A stretch of 64,000 nt of DNA, from positions 1-64,000 of the forward strand of contig JAVJSI010000004.1 of assembly GCA_040219515.1 (NCBI GenBank), given 5' to 3'. Of the stretch, positions 8,283 to 62,237 are shown piece by piece. The number at the start of each line of letters is the position of its first letter. Position 1 is the stretch's first letter. The notes beneath the pieces were generated by a model, which had not been told where the DNA came from, ran no database searches, and saw only the letters and a list, made by a program, of their open reading frames with translations. Made by a program: the position numbers and the translations under genes. This stretch comes from Acidimicrobiales bacterium. GTDB lineage: Bacteria > Actinomycetota > Acidimicrobiia > Acidimicrobiales > Aldehydirespiratoraceae.

Positions 8283-8843
8283 ATGCAGGCCACTGGACAA
8301 CGCAGCAGCCCCACTGGACAACGCACGGATCGCAGCGATGGCACCCCACCGCTCACCATCCGACCGGCCACCGCCGACGACGGCGCCGCCATGTGGGATC
8401 TCGCCCAAGGCGCCGTGGATGACAACTCCCCGTACTCCTACCTTCTCATCGGCGAGTACTTCGGTGACACGTGCGTCATCGCCGAGCGCGAGGGCGACGT
8501 GCTGGGGTTCGTCACCGGATTCCGCCGCCCGGACGAACCCCGCACCCAGTTCGTGTGGCAGATCGTCGTCGGCGAGGCAGGACGCGGCGAGGGCCTGGGC
8601 TCCAAAATGCTCGAGGCCCTGGTCGACGGCCCCGGCCCCGGCACGCCGGCCGACTGCCTCGAGGCAACCGTGACGCCCGACAACGCGGCGTCGCAGGCGC
8701 TGTTCCGGTCCTTCGCCCGGCGCCGATCGGCCGAGTGCGTCGAGACGGTGCTGTTTCGGCGTGAACAGTTCCCCGTGGACGCCGGCGAACACGAACCAGA
8801 GGTGCTGTTCCGAATCGGGCCGTGGCCCGACCGCAGCGACTGA
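8283..8843 (+). CDS. ectA: L-2,4-diaminobutyrate N-acetyltransferase
   Basis: EctA (186 residues) acetylates L-2,4-diaminobutyrate with acetyl-CoA, the second committed step of ectoine synthesis. The GNAT fold is visible: TIRPATADDGAAMWDLA, then the family-specific NSPYSYLLIGEYFGDTC, the acetyl-CoA loop RGEGLGSKML, and LEATVTPDNAASQALFRSFA. The C-terminus ends in EPEVLFRIGP, as in other EctA proteins. ATG 8283 is the only start codon in frame before the conserved domain; it has no clear Shine-Dalgarno. The first 25 residues are poorly conserved and encode a direct repeat (8290-8325). It is the first gene of the ect operon. Confidence 0.95.
   Translation: MQATGQRSSPTGQRTDRSDGTPPLTIRPATADDGAAMWDLAQGAVDDNSPYSYLLIGEYFGDTCVIAEREGDVLGFVTGFRRPDEPRTQFVWQIVVGEAGRGEGLGSKMLEALVDGPGPGTPADCLEATVTPDNAASQALFRSFARRRSAECVETVLFRREQFPVDAGEHEPEVLFRIGPWPDRSD
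8290..8325. repeat. Tandem 15-bp direct repeat at the 5' end of ectA
   Basis: CCACTGGACAACGCA occurs at 8290-8304 and again at 8311-8325. The copies start 21 bp apart, close to two helical turns. It lies in the unconserved N-terminal codons of ectA, giving a TGQR peptide repeat. It may be a chance duplication or a regulator site placed just inside the gene. Confidence 0.6.
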
Positions 8844-8966
8844 CCGCAGCGAGGCTCTCGCCCGAACCGGTCCGGTCGCTCCCATCGGCGCGCCCCACCG
8901 GAGCAACGCACGACTTCCCCCACCCCCCCCATCCCTCGAACAATGAACTCACCCAAGGAGAACCCC

Positions 8967-10255
8967 ATGGAATCGATCGAACAGCACGAGTCGCAGGTGC
9001 GGTCCTACTGCCGCGGCTGGCCCACGACCTTCGTCTCCGGCCGCGGCGCGACCCTGACCGCCGCCGACGGGCGCGAGTACGTCGACTTCTTCGCCGGCGC
9101 CGGCGCGCTGAACTACGGCCACAACGACCCGACCATGCGTGACGCGCTGATCGACTATCTGACCAGCGGTGGCGTGATCCACGGGTTGGACATGGCCACC
9201 GCGGCCAAGGAACGTTTTCTCGACACGTTCCACGATCTGATCCTGGCGCCCCGGAACCTCGACTATGTGGTGCAGTTCCCCGGCCCGACCGGCACCAACG
9301 CGGTCGAGGCGGCTCTGAAACTCGCCAGAAAGGTGAAGGGTCGTGACGGTATCGCGAGCTTCACCAACGGGTTCCACGGCATGACCCTCGGTGCACTGGC
9401 GGTGACCGGCAACGCGATGAAGCGCGAGGGTGCCGGCGTGCCGCTGACCAATACCGTCAACCTGCCGTTCGAGGGGTTCCACGGCAGCGACGTCGACACG
9501 ATCGAGCTGATCGCCCGGGTCCTCGATCAGGACGGCAGCGGCGTCGATCTTCCGGCCGCCGTGATCGTGGAGACCGTGCAGGCGGAGGGCGGCATCCACG
9601 TGGCGTCGATGGAGTGGCTGCGGCGACTCCGCGAGGTCTGCGACGAACTCGACATGCTGCTCATCGTCGACGACATCCAGGCGGGTTGTGGGCGCACCGG
9701 CTCGTTCTTCTCGTTCGAAGAGGCGGGCATCGAGCCCGACATCGTGTGCCTGTCGAAGTCCATCAGCGGCTTCGGGCTGCCGATGGCGCTCACCCTGTTC
9801 CGCCGCGAGCACGACATCTGGATTCCCGGCGAGCACAACGGGACGTTCCGCGGCAACAACGCGGCCTTCGTCACGGGCACTGTCGCCCTCGAGAAGTACT
9901 GGGGTGACTCGGTGCTCTCCCGCGAGACTCAGCGCAAGTCCGCCGCCGTGCGCGAACGTCTCTCGATGCTGGCCGAGGCACACCCCGGCGTCTTCGGCGA
10001 GGTGCGAGGACGAGGACTCATCCAGGGAATCGACAGCCTCTCCGGAGAAACGGCCGACCTGGTGACCACTCGTGCATTCGAGCTCGGCCTGCTGCTCGAG
10101 ACGGCAGGGCCGGACGGTGAGATCACCAAGCTTCTCCCGTCACTGACGATCGAGGACGACCTCCTCGACCGCGGTCTCACCCTGCTCGAACAGGCCGTTG
10201 AGGACGTGGTCGATCGCGAGGGCGCCCGTCTCCTCGAAGTCGCGGAGGCCAACTG

Positions 10256-10256
<1 letters not shown>
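8967..10256 (+). CDS. ectB: Diaminobutyrate--2-oxoglutarate transaminase
   Basis: EctB (429 residues) is a PLP class-III aminotransferase that converts aspartate-semialdehyde and glutamate into L-2,4-diaminobutyrate. The N-terminus [12 protein letters not shown] is the EctB signature. [17 protein letters not shown] binds the PLP phosphate, [17 protein letters not shown] holds the Asp that contacts the pyridine nitrogen, and [13 protein letters not shown] carries the Schiff-base lysine K264. AAGGAG at 8955-8960 sits 6 nt before ATG 8967, so the in-frame ATG at 8943 is rejected. The 123-bp gap after ectA is the only sizeable gap in the operon. The stop shares one base with ectC. Confidence 0.97.
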
Positions 10257-10671
<415 letters not shown>

Positions 10672-10675
<4 letters not shown>

Positions 10676-11589
10676 ACACGTCACCGAGACGAACCGCGGA
10701 CGACCGCTATCCATCCCGCATCGGCGGCTCCGCCGAAATCTCCGAACGCACGGCCCCACTCGTGTGGGGCGACGACGGACCGCTGTCGGGCCACGAGCTC
10801 CGCCGCTACGAGCGCGACGGCTTCCTCATGTTCTCCGGCCTCCTGCCGGAATCGACGGTCGCCGAGTGCCTGGAAGCGGTTTCGGAGCTCGAGCGCGGTG
10901 CCTACTCGAACTCGAGCGCCGAGGTGGCCGAACCCGGCGACGACGCGGCGCTCCGCTCGCTGTTCCAGCTGGACCGACACCCGGCCTTCGCCGCGCTCAT
11001 GGCCCGCCCCGAGCTGGCCGACGTCGCTCGTCAGCTGCTGGGTTCCGACGTGACGATCCACCAGAGCCGCCTCAATCTCAAGCGGGCGTTCGAGGGTCGC
11101 GGCTTCCCGTGGCATTCGGATTTCGAGACCTGGCACGTCGAGGACGGCATGCCCGAACCCCGGGCCGTCAGCTGCTCGGTCGCCCTGACGCCGAACCACG
11201 CCCACAACGGCCCGTTGCACCTCATCGCCGGTTCGCATCGCTGGTTCGTGTCGTGCCCGGGCCGCACCCCGAGCGACCATCATCTCGAGTCGCTCCGCCG
11301 TCAGGAGTACGGCGTGCCCGACGAGAAGACGCTCACCGAGCTCGGTCGACGCGGGTCGCTCGACACGTTCACCGGCCCGGCCGGCAGTGTCGTTTTCTTC
11401 GAGTGCAACGTGATGCACGGCTCGGGCGACAACATCTCGCCCGAACCGCGCACCAACGCGTTCTTCGTCTACAACAGCGTCGAGAACGCCCTCGAGGCGC
11501 CGTACGGCGCCGAGAAGCCCCGGCCCGAACATCTGGCCGCACGGTCCGCCGAGCCGGTGGGTCGATCCGCAGGGAGCTGGCCGTCATGA
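10672..11589 (+). CDS. ectD: Ectoine 5-hydroxylase (Fe(II)/2-oxoglutarate dioxygenase)
   Basis: EctD (305 residues) converts ectoine to 5-hydroxyectoine using O2 and 2-oxoglutarate. The EctD signature [17 protein letters not shown] supplies iron ligands H148 and D150, and the third ligand is H249 in [18 protein letters not shown] and [18 protein letters not shown] match the family. Start is GTG, forming a GTGA overlap with the ectC stop; the stop overlaps the ATG of the aspartokinase gene. Its presence means the strain can make the hydroxylated solute, usually linked to heat or desiccation as well as salt stress. Confidence 0.97.
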
Positions 11590-12962
11590 CGACAGGACTC
11601 AACGACACCATCGTCTGCAAGTTCGGCGGCAGTTCCGTGGCCGACGCCGATCAGATCGTGAAGGTGCGCGACATCGTGGCGGCCGACGAGCGCCGCCGCC
11701 ACATCGTGGTGTCGGCGCCGGGGCGACGCCACGCCCACGAGGAGAAGGTGACCGATCATCTCCTCAACATCGCCACCCACGGCGCGCACTTCGCCGAGCG
11801 TCGTCCGCCGATCGCCGTCGAGGACAGCACGAAAGCCGTCAATACCCGGTTCGGCGAGATCCTCGTGGGCCTCGACCTGCCGTCGGAGCCGATGCTCCAG
11901 GAGTTGGACCGAGATCTCGCCACCGACCTCGAGGGTGCGGCGCGCGTGGCTTTCCTCGCGTCTCGCGGCGAGCACTACTCGGCTCGCATCGTGGCGGCGT
12001 TCCTCACCGCCAGCGAGATGCCCGCGTCGGCGCGCCTGCCCGAGGACTTCGGCCTGCTGGTCGACGGGCCGATGCTCCAGGCCCGCGTCCACCCCGACAC
12101 GTCGGAACGGATCGCGGCGCTCGACGTCACCGACGAGCTCGCGGTGATCCCGGGCTACTACGGCGTGCAGGAGGACGGCACCGTCGCTGTGTTCTCCCGC
12201 GGCGGGTCCGATCTCACCGGGGGAGAGGTGGCCGCCGCGGTGAACGCCGGCAGCTACGAGAACTGGACCGATGTGAGCGGCGTCTTCGAAGCCGATCCCC
12301 GCGTCCTCCCCGAGGCACGGGCCATTCCCCGACTGACCTTCAAGGAGATCCGTCTCCTCGCTTCCAAGGGGTTCAACGTCTTCCACTTCGACGCGATGGT
12401 CAACTGTCGCCGGCGGGGGGTGCCGATCCACATCCGCAACACCAACGACCCCGAGGCGGCGGGTACCCGCATCCTCAACGAGCGGGTGCCCGAAGAGGGC
12501 GTGGTGGGGATCGCCCGCCTCGACGACGTGGGCTACATCTACCTCGAGAAGGACGATCTCAGCATGGAGGTGGGATTCACCGCCTCGCTGCTGCGCATCT
12601 TCCAGGACTTCGGCATCAACACCCACCACTATCCGACCGACCGCGACGACATCGCCGTGCTGGTCGACCAGACGGACCTGAAGGGCAGCATCAACGACCT
12701 ACGTCGGGCCATCGACGAGACGCTGCAACCCGACGCGATGGAGGTGGTCTACAACCTCTCGATCCTCACGCCGGTGGGTCTGGGGCTGAAGCACAACTCG
12801 TCCCCCGTGGCCGACGCCCTCCAGTCGCTGTCGGAACGCAACATCGCCCTGGAGATGTTCCACCAGAGCCCGTCGCAGCTGTGCTTCCACCTCGGTGTCT
12901 CGGGAGCGGCAGCCGACGTCGCGTACCGCGCCCTCTACGAAGCGCTGATCGGCGGCGACTGA
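11586..12962 (+). CDS. ask: Aspartate kinase of the ectoine cluster (Ask_Ect type)
   Basis: The 458-residue aspartokinase supplies aspartyl phosphate for the aspartate-semialdehyde consumed by EctB. KFGGSSVADADQ is the N-terminal kinase signature. VIPGYYGVQEDGTVAVFSRGGSDLTG and YENWTDVSGVFEADPRVLPEA follow, then C-terminal ACT-type segments (SMEVGFTASLLRIFQDFGIN, SERNIALEMFHQ). It closes the operon through an ATGA overlap with ectD, and that position argues for the specialised feedback-tolerant Ask_Ect paralogue rather than the lysine/threonine housekeeping enzyme. No aspartate-semialdehyde dehydrogenase gene lies nearby. Confidence 0.93.
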   Translation: MTTGLNDTIVCKFGGSSVADADQIVKVRDIVAADERRRHIVVSAPGRRHAHEEKVTDHLLNIATHGAHFAERRPPIAVEDSTKAVNTRFGEILVGLDLPSEPMLQELDRDLATDLEGAARVAFLASRGEHYSARIVAAFLTASEMPASARLPEDFGLLVDGPMLQARVHPDTSERIAALDVTDELAVIPGYYGVQEDGTVAVFSRGGSDLTGGEVAAAVNAGSYENWTDVSGVFEADPRVLPEARAIPRLTFKEIRLLASKGFNVFHFDAMVNCRRRGVPIHIRNTNDPEAAGTRILNERVPEEGVVGIARLDDVGYIYLEKDDLSMEVGFTASLLRIFQDFGINTHHYPTDRDDIAVLVDQTDLKGSINDLRRAIDETLQPDAMEVVYNLSILTPVGLGLKHNSSPVADALQSLSERNIALEMFHQSPSQLCFHLGVSGAAADVAYRALYEALIGGD

Positions 12963-15180: not shown

Positions 15181-15510
15181 CTATGAGACGATCGCGACGC
15201 CACCCAGCTTGTGGTTGGCGAAGCCTTCGACCCTTTCCACGAACTGCGGCGAGCGCCGCAGTCGGGAGGCGATCTCGGCAGTGTCCACGCCGTCGGCGCG
15301 GGCCTTCAGCACGTGGCGCTCGATGGGTCGGAGCGTCCCGTCGTCGGAGTCGAAGGACGACGCATCGCGGTCGATCTTCGTCAGGTCGATGATTCGCTGC
15401 ACTGCGCCGGGGCTGCGGCGAAGTCGCCAGGCGATCTCGTCGGTCGTCATGCCCTGCCGGGTGCGCTTGAGGATCGTGCGTTCGAGGGGGCGGAGATCGT
15501 CGAGACTCAC
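15181..15510 (-). CDS. Tandem helix-turn-helix small protein
   Basis: The 109-residue protein is two copies of the same about 40-residue HTH unit: LRPLERTILKRTRQGMTTDE-IAWRLRRSPGAVQRI and LRPIERHVLKARADGVDTAE-IASRLRRSPQFVERV. Each resembles the C-terminal HTH of sigma-70 region 4 or LuxR proteins (ER-x2-L, EIA-x-L, second helix for recognition). A short acidic linker (DASSFDSDDG) joins them. Start is GTG with AAAGG 8 nt upstream. There is no sensor, kinase or core-binding domain, so it could bind DNA as a pseudo-dimer. It is convergent with the ABC exporter and divergent from hsp20. No named family is recognised. Confidence 0.8.
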   Translation of the reverse strand: MSLDDLRPLERTILKRTRQGMTTDEIAWRLRRSPGAVQRIIDLTKIDRDASSFDSDDGTLRPIERHVLKARADGVDTAEIASRLRRSPQFVERVEGFANHKLGGVAIVS

Positions 15511-15605
15511 AGGTCGGGCCTTTCGGGAGCGGATATCCCGCGTGACCTACCCTGCGGCGCCGAGCGGCAAACACCGTCACATGCACTGCAGTCGCGGTCC
15601 GCGGC

Positions 15606-15631
15606 GTTTAGCGGCGCCCGCCGCCGGGTAG
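15606..15631 (+). promoter_or_regulatory. Stress-sigma (SigB/SigF-type) promoter of hsp20
   Basis: GTTTA at 15606-15610 and GGGTAG at 15626-15631 are separated by 15 nt, matching the GTTT-N14-17-GGGTA pattern of general-stress sigma factors. It lies 44 nt upstream of the hsp20 start, leaving a leader of about 37 nt that carries the Shine-Dalgarno. Confidence 0.6.
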
Positions 15632-15674
15632 CCCTCCATCAGGAGCACGCAATCGACTCGAAAGGATGATTTCA

Positions 15675-16094
15675 GTGTTGTTCCGCTTTGACCCCTTCGA
15701 TCAGCTCGACCGCTTCGGACGCCCCCAGTCGATGCTGGCGATGGACGCCACCCGCACCGACGACGAGGTGAACGTCTACTTCGATCTCCCCGGCGTGATG
15801 CCGGAAGACCTCGACATCACCGTCGAGAAGAACGCCGTCACCATCGAGGCGAGCCGCCGCTGGTTCGACGCAGACGCGAAGACCGTGGCGAGCGAACGCC
15901 CGCAGGGCACCTTCAAGCGTGAGCTGCAACTCGGCGAGCACCTCGACAGCGATGCCCTCAAGGCCAAGCTCGAGAACGGTGTGCTCACCCTGTCCGTGCC
16001 GATCAAGGAAGGCACCAAGCCCCGCTCGATCAGCGTGTCCACACGCGACGGCGAGGCGAAGGAACTCTCCACCAGTTCCGCCAGTTCGGGCTGA
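15675..16094 (+). CDS. Hsp20/alpha-crystallin small heat-shock protein
   Basis: The 139-residue holdase chaperone binds unfolding proteins in the cytoplasm. The alpha-crystallin domain runs from about residue 20 to 125: EVNVYFDLPGVMPEDLDITV, NAVTIEASRRW, GTFKRELQLGEHLDSDALKA and the signature LENGVLTLSVPIKEG. The GTG at 15675 gives the usual MLFRFDPFDQLDR start with AAAGGA 8 nt before it; the ATG at 15666 overlaps that Shine-Dalgarno and is rejected. The C-terminal IxI-type tail is represented by RSISVSTRDG. A stress-sigma-like promoter lies upstream. Convergent with the MarR gene. Confidence 0.93.
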   Translation: MLFRFDPFDQLDRFGRPQSMLAMDATRTDDEVNVYFDLPGVMPEDLDITVEKNAVTIEASRRWFDADAKTVASERPQGTFKRELQLGEHLDSDALKAKLENGVLTLSVPIKEGTKPRSISVSTRDGEAKELSTSSASSG

Positions 16095-61351: not shown

Positions 61352-61383
61352 TGCAGCGTTGGGGTCAGACCCCCGTCCCAACT
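61352..61383 (+). repeat. REP-like terminal repeat, left
   Basis: This copy reads TGCAGCGTTGGGGTCAGACC at its start. It includes the stop codon of the transposase gene (61365-61367 on plus as TCA). Confidence 0.8.
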
Positions 61384-62237
61384 TGGGTTGTGAGGCGCTG
61401 TCGGGCGGACTCGAGGAGCGCGCGGAAGGCGGGGTCGGTCCGGGCGAGCGCTCGTGCCCGAGTCGTTGCTGACCGAACGCTGCTGGCGGAGCGAAAGCCG
61501 TAGCGATCGGCGAGGGTCTGGGCGGTGCCGGCGGTGAGTTCGGATGCAAGTAGGACGCAGGCCATCCGCAATTCGTTGCGCACCCCGCGCCCGCCGGCCC
61601 GGAGAAGCTCTCGCTCGGACGGCGACGACACACCGAGCGCCTGTTCGATGGCATCGGCGCCGGTGAGTCGTGGTGCAGAGCCGAGAATCGGGCGGTCGGG
61701 TTCGACCTCGCCGCCTACGACGAACTTCCGGTAGGCCGCGACATCCCCGGAGAATCGGTCCAGGATCGGTGTGATCGAGAGCCAAGGAGGCGCCGGTGAA
61801 ACCCCGAGATAGGCGAGGTGGCTCGTCCATCGGAACACCGACAGCGTGGGCCGGTCCGAGGTGACCGGGTTGCGGTGGATGTAGCGCACGACCTGGTTGA
61901 GGTATCGGTCCTCGATGATGGGCTTCGTGCGATATCGGCCTCGAAGGAGCGCCCCGTCGAGGCCGTACTTGGTGTTGAACCGCTGTGTGTAGCCGCTGCA
62001 CAACGCCTGCATGGTCGAGGAGAGCGACTCCACCGTGCCCCGGACGAGCAGGTGGAAGTGGTTGGGCATCAGTGCGTAGGCGTGGACCTCGAGTTCGTGG
62101 TGTCGCGCCGCCTCGCCGAGGCGGCGCAGGAATGCATCCCGGTCGCCGTCGTCGCCGAAGATCGGCAGCCGCCGTGCGCCCCGATTCATCACGTGGAACC
62201 ATCCGTCGTCCATCAACCGTCTCGGAATTCGTGCCAT
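61365..62237 (-). CDS. REP-associated tyrosine transposase (RAYT, Y1 family)
   Basis: The 290-residue protein has the Y1 fold: RLMDDGWFHVMNRGARRLPI, the HUH motif MPNHFHLLVRG with H60/H62, and the catalytic Tyr (about Y119) in LNQVVRYIHRNPV. FRWTSHLAYLG and the C-terminal helices (SERELLRAGGRGVRNELRMA, LADRYGFRSASSVRSA) are typical of the RAYT group. It should nick and join single-stranded REP hairpins. Leaderless start: TAGCGT on the minus strand (62245-62250) is 7 nt before ATG 62237. It appears intact. Confidence 0.92.
   Translation of the reverse strand: MARIPRRLMDDGWFHVMNRGARRLPIFGDDGDRDAFLRRLGEAARHHELEVHAYALMPNHFHLLVRGTVESLSSTMQALCSGYTQRFNTKYGLDGALLRGRYRTKPIIEDRYLNQVVRYIHRNPVTSDRPTLSVFRWTSHLAYLGVSPAPPWLSITPILDRFSGDVAAYRKFVVGGEVEPDRPILGSAPRLTGADAIEQALGVSSPSERELLRAGGRGVRNELRMACVLLASELTAGTAQTLADRYGFRSASSVRSATTRARALARTDPAFRALLESARQRLTTQVGTGV

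Follow-up and report, generated by a model that had tools for sequence, protein, structure and literature searches.

What does a protein of 109 residues do if it holds two HTH units and nothing else? The gene that raises this question lies in a 64-kb stretch of DNA, hereafter the window, where an ABC-2 permease gene converges on it from one side and an Hsp20 gene diverges from it on the other (Table 1). The answer that we favour, and consider reasonably probable, is that its product is a small free-standing transcription regulator that would read two DNA sites as a monomer and that takes part, in this genome, in a stress regulon of the sigma-B type.

Table 1 Features of the tandem-HTH gene and its divergent neighbour (window coordinates)
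Feature	Position	Strand	Details and basis
Tandem-HTH miniprotein gene	15181..15510	-	109 aa, GTG start; ORF and codon usage; 66/395 class genomes at E<=1e-12
HTH unit 1, residues 6-45	15376..15495	-	Pfam HTH_23/Sigma70_r4_2/GerE; helices 8-18, 23-29, 34-45
Linker, residues 46-59	15334..15375	-	pLDDT <50 over residues 47-56; linker charges
HTH unit 2, residues 60-101	15208..15333	-	Pfam; helices 62-72, 77-83, 88-103
Probable ribosome binding site GAAAGG	15519..15524	-	8 nt upstream of GTG start; sequence read directly
Sigma-B-type promoter GTTT-N16-GGGTA, tandem-HTH gene	15548..15572	-	37 nt before start; pattern searches
Sigma-B-type promoter GTTT-N16-GGGTA, Hsp20 gene	15606..15630	+	Pattern searches
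Hsp20 gene, divergent neighbour	15666..16094 (start 15666 or 15675)	+	Pfam HSP20 1.4e-22

Two copies of one HTH in a single short chain

The reading frame has codon usage of the coding type. Searched as a whole against Pfam, the protein matched HTH_23 (3.9e-9), Sigma70_r4_2 (1.1e-7) and GerE (9.4e-7), each in two stretches, and neither Pfam nor NCBIfam placed any other domain in the 109 residues; no NCBIfam model scored above its cut-off. The frame stops after the second HTH and thus lacks the catalytic DDE domain of Tc1/IS630-type transposases.

The two units are copies of each other. Residues 6-40 (LRPLERTILKRTRQGMTTDEIAWRLRRSPGAVQRI) and 60-94 (LRPIERHVLKARADGVDTAEIASRLRRSPQFVERV) align without a gap over 35 residues, and the local score of one half against the other is 94, compared with a mean of 20.3 (sd 4.0, maximum 50) for 5000 shuffles, giving a z of about 18. 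The duplication is old, since over 39 codons the halves share 51% identity at the amino acid level and 56% at the nucleotide level; the profiles of half 1 and half 2 still match (99.5%). A tree of the halves, built on 40 columns and poorly resolved, nevertheless separates the first halves from the second halves (5 changes versus 29 in shuffles), which dates the duplication before the radiation of the family. The first-pass annotation had described two duplicated units resembling sigma region 4 and LuxR with no further domain, and the ungapped alignment, the Pfam matches and the AlphaFold model all bear this out. The shared sequence frame that it gave for the halves holds overall, except that its element LKxR fails in half 1, which reads LKRTR, and that half 2 ends in RV and not RI.

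Structure prediction, which the annotation had proposed as a check, yielded two three-helix HTHs joined by a disordered linker, both for the window protein (pLDDT 75.8, pTM 0.40) and for one relative (pLDDT 80.6, pTM 0.44). With a pTM of only 0.40, the window model is no guide to how the two HTHs are placed relative to each other. The linker is acidic in the window protein (net -4) and neutral or basic in most homologues, while the net charge of the whole protein is positive in 43 of 43 family members.

Taken singly, each HTH has a common fold: per-domain searches returned sigma region 4, DosR, NarL, RcsB and others at Z 7-9. The likeness to sigma-70 region 4 (Sigma70_r4_2, Sigma70_r4) extends to both fold and sequence, yet a sigma-70 factor has both region 2 and region 4 in its chain, whereas here the whole protein is two region-4-like HTHs in one short chain, without region 2 or the core-binding parts. 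Likewise, each half, and half 1 above all, resembles in sequence the GerE HTH of NarL/FixJ/LuxR proteins, but the unit is duplicated and the N-terminal receiver, ligand or sensor domain of such regulators is missing. Matches that cover two HTHs were all weak, namely the bipartite domain of Tc3 transposase (1u78), Cbp2 and the paired domains (1pdn, 1k78). Tc3 and the paired domains, which are among the top two-domain fold matches, also fit two HTHs into about 105-125 aa; unlike them, the tandem-HTH protein has no transposase domain and its halves are close copies of each other. PHROGs and PADLOC gave matches at the HTH level only, with phrog_323 (a D5-like regulator) spanning both halves at E 8e-5.

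A single-copy family of the Acidimicrobiia

At E<=1e-12, a profile search found family members in 66 of the 395 Acidimicrobiia genomes sampled and in 44 of 184 genera, one copy in every carrier. Among 100 genomes of relatives, 8 had homologues, one of them marginal, and a search of genome contigs with a narrow alignment returned 7 loci. The record titles of genome-contig hits name Acidimicrobiia. Outside this class, the profile search found the family in none of the sampled genomes of the phylum. The phylum-wide search left a clear gap, with all members at E<=1e-20 and all of them from Acidimicrobiia, and the remainder at E>=9.5e-7; we rejected these other matches as members because they are weak, mostly cover part of the profile and lie in longer reading frames. 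Three GenBank MAGs titled Acidobacteria (loci L049, L050 and L051) also carry the gene. Since L049 and L050 have matching loci in genomes placed in the window's class, the Acidobacteria titles are probably wrong.

Both halves are present in all aligned members, and the length is mostly 100-123 aa. The window protein shows the marks of the family, being a single-copy protein in the range of about 100-120 aa with two LRPxER...RRSP HTHs. The family is under purifying selection: in close pairs, synonymous exceeded non-synonymous change (pS/pN 0.13/0.02, 0.23/0.03 and 0.35/0.13). The nearest relative of the window protein (about 60%) comes from G218, a genome of another family of the class, and not from the same-genus genome G002, a pattern consistent with a gene that is mobile or has been lost repeatedly. 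A phage or plasmid origin was also considered and dropped, as viral contigs, phages and plasmids held no relative.

The Pfam and NCBIfam profile libraries contain no model dedicated to the family, and the libraries and papers that we searched contained no description of it, so that the tandem-HTH family of the Acidimicrobiia appears to be new. The architecture itself is not, since free-standing tandem HTHs are known from archaeal Cbp2, paired-domain proteins and the DNA-binding domain of Tc3. The earlier statement that this design had not been described therefore stands for the family, which Pfam and NCBIfam do not list, and falls for the design, of which Cbp2 with its two HTHs is an example.

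Sigma-B-type promoters and gene neighbourhood

The tandem-HTH and Hsp20 genes are separated by a gap of 155 bp. In the entire window, the pattern GTTT-N(12-17)-GGGTA occurs at 2 sites against 0.24 expected, and two or more sites arose in 3 of 100 shuffles. Both lie inside the gap and face away from each other, one towards the tandem-HTH gene and the other towards Hsp20. The pattern was picked after the Hsp20 site had been seen, so that this site is not independent evidence; the one on the tandem-HTH side was unexpected.

We then extended the search to the whole genome with a spacer of N14-17, which gave 31 sites, compared with 8 for a reversed control pattern. Judged with a rough gene caller, 22 of these sites are located outside called genes and at most 150 nt upstream of a start on the same strand. 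The genes behind the sites include catalase, CsbD, hemerythrin and BrkB as well as, recognised by eye, one for a universal-stress-like protein; a glycosyltransferase-20 gene follows further down, 283 nt from its site. Only one gene of the genome, on contig C9 at 160893-161636, scores above the cut-off for SigB/F/G sigma factors (252.6 bits at 160959-161624; cut-off 234.35), and five of the sites fall within 13 kb of it. The surrounding region (C9:159500-175500) holds, besides this gene and five sites, two RsbW-like genes (HATPase_c_2), one RsbV-like gene (STAS), and the CsbD, hemerythrin and universal-stress-like genes, and is probably a general stress locus.

In B. subtilis and S. coelicolor, SigB promoters share the consensus GTTT-N14-16-GGGWA, and SCO1276p (GTTTGC-N14-GGGTAG) equals the window site in both boxes and in spacing (PMC8346170). 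The promoter pattern, the stress genes behind its sites, the SigB/F/G cluster and the published consensus together suggest that the window gene, which has its promoter at a plausible distance, probably belongs to the general stress regulon of this genome, with the Hsp20 gene as a probable fellow member. The promoter, the SigB/F/G gene with RsbW/RsbV-like neighbours and the stress genes liken this set to known SigB/SigF regulons, from which it differs in that we infer it from the promoter pattern. The suggestion that the gene acts under stress control is thereby strengthened, by its own promoter and by a recognisable regulon, which are more direct grounds than those given in the annotation. As a trait of the family, however, a sigma-B-type promoter was rejected: an exact site stands upstream of 2 of 43 homologues, and because the only one besides the window gene is L086, stress control is not a property of the family.

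The divergent arrangement with Hsp20, which the first-pass annotation had made part of its case, does not extend beyond this locus. Apart from the window, no family locus has an Hsp20 gene nearby, and in another genome of the same taxonomic family (G020, contig C48) the ABC-2 permease and Hsp20 genes are directly adjacent with no tandem-HTH gene between them; we thus discarded a conserved tie to Hsp20. A link to tRNA genes was dropped as well, being seen at four loci only. The sole recurrent neighbour is a gene for a mono-cluster ferredoxin (Fer4_15), present at 13 of 43 loci (L056, L058 and 11 others), downstream of the tandem-HTH gene in most of them and upstream in two. The loci concerned come from three or more parts of the tree, and at two loci the stop and start codons of the two genes overlap as ATGA. 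In some relatives, then, the two genes probably form an operon. The window genome has the corresponding ferredoxin gene on contig C9, where it has no tandem-HTH neighbour. A search for an operator by upstream alignments, k-mers and repeats produced no convincing shared motif; the intergenic region of the window contains no direct repeat, and no shared upstream motif links the window gene to the ferredoxin gene on C9.

Proposed function and competing explanations

In the reading that we prefer, the protein would be a single chain of two sigma-4/NarL-type HTHs on a flexible linker, an arrangement by which a monomer could bind two neighbouring major-groove sites. Its expression in vivo would depend on a sigma-B-type factor, acting at the promoter divergent from that of Hsp20 within the general stress regulon, and it would presumably tune some of the stress or redox genes, acting as a repressor or activator at a bipartite site. 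A monomeric two-site regulator is the simplest reading of HTHs of the DNA-binding type, positive charge, the lack of any other domain and a flexible linker. The best candidate target is the ferredoxin gene, given the probable operon in some relatives. We counted against this reading that no DNA site was found and that the ferredoxin gene does not adjoin the window gene.

The likeness of each half to sigma region 4 (Sigma70_r4_2; 1rp3 and 1ku7 at Z of about 8) also raises the idea of a sigma mimic, with one HTH on the beta-flap of RNA polymerase or on an anti-sigma factor and the other on promoter DNA, which would act as a co-sigma, a sigma competitor or an anti-sigma decoy. In the alignments, half 2 of many members ends in IRQVEGLAHYR, which we take to resemble the stretch IRQIEAKALR of sigma 4.2, and the probable expression of the window gene in the sigma-B regulon would suit such a role. 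However, NarL and RcsB HTHs match equally well or better, the fold is common to ordinary regulators, sigma region 2 is missing, and no sigma or anti-sigma gene is a conserved neighbour in the 43 loci; we regard this explanation as unlikely. Improbable to a greater degree, and the least probable of our proposals, is a class-specific stress factor in which a duplicated sigma-region-4 module would contact RNA polymerase as well as promoter DNA, or else two -35-like sites at once. If it were true, such a module, lacking the other parts of a sigma factor, would redirect promoter choice in the general stress response.

The neighbourhood data suggest another alternative, in which the ancestral role is control of the mono-cluster ferredoxin and the window copy keeps this target in trans. 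Their adjacency in several parts of the tree, whichever of the two genes comes first, speaks for it, but 30 of the 43 loci, the window among them, have no ferredoxin gene, and no upstream motif is shared in the window genome; it is slightly less likely than the sigma mimic. A shade below it we place a repeat- or chromatin-binding architectural protein like Cbp1/Cbp2, with its HTHs lined along repeated or bipartite DNA. Cbp1 has three HTHs and Cbp2 two, both bind CRISPR repeats, and their genes are not linked to CRISPR loci (PMC10883916, PMC4390879). Cbp2 (2LVS), a relative of Cbp1, came up in the fold search and is also the only natural PDB protein that we saw with a significant match along both halves of the family profile (positions 13-91, E=0.0012). 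Like the window protein, it consists of two HTHs and a linker in about 105 aa, with no other domain, and the variable, often basic linker of the family is a further point of likeness. Yet Cbp2 is archaeal and binds CRISPR repeats, and its E value is no better than those of the single HTHs of NarL (0.0006-0.0008) and RcsB (0.0012), which supports similarity at the HTH level only.

The family would provide a bacterial counterpart to the stand-alone two-HTH design of archaeal Cbp2. For this uncharacterised class-wide family, anatomy and distribution are now described, together with two regulatory links that can be tested, the stress regulon here and the ferredoxin operon elsewhere. The promoter survey, in addition, outlines a general stress regulon for one genome of the Acidimicrobiia, a class with few cultivated members. 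Elsewhere in the window, the genes at 8391-12962 look by eye like an ectoine/hydroxyectoine operon (ectA, ectB, ectC, ectD and aspartokinase), and the one at 61365-62213 like a gene for a REP-associated tyrosine transposase (MNRG...MPNHFHLL).
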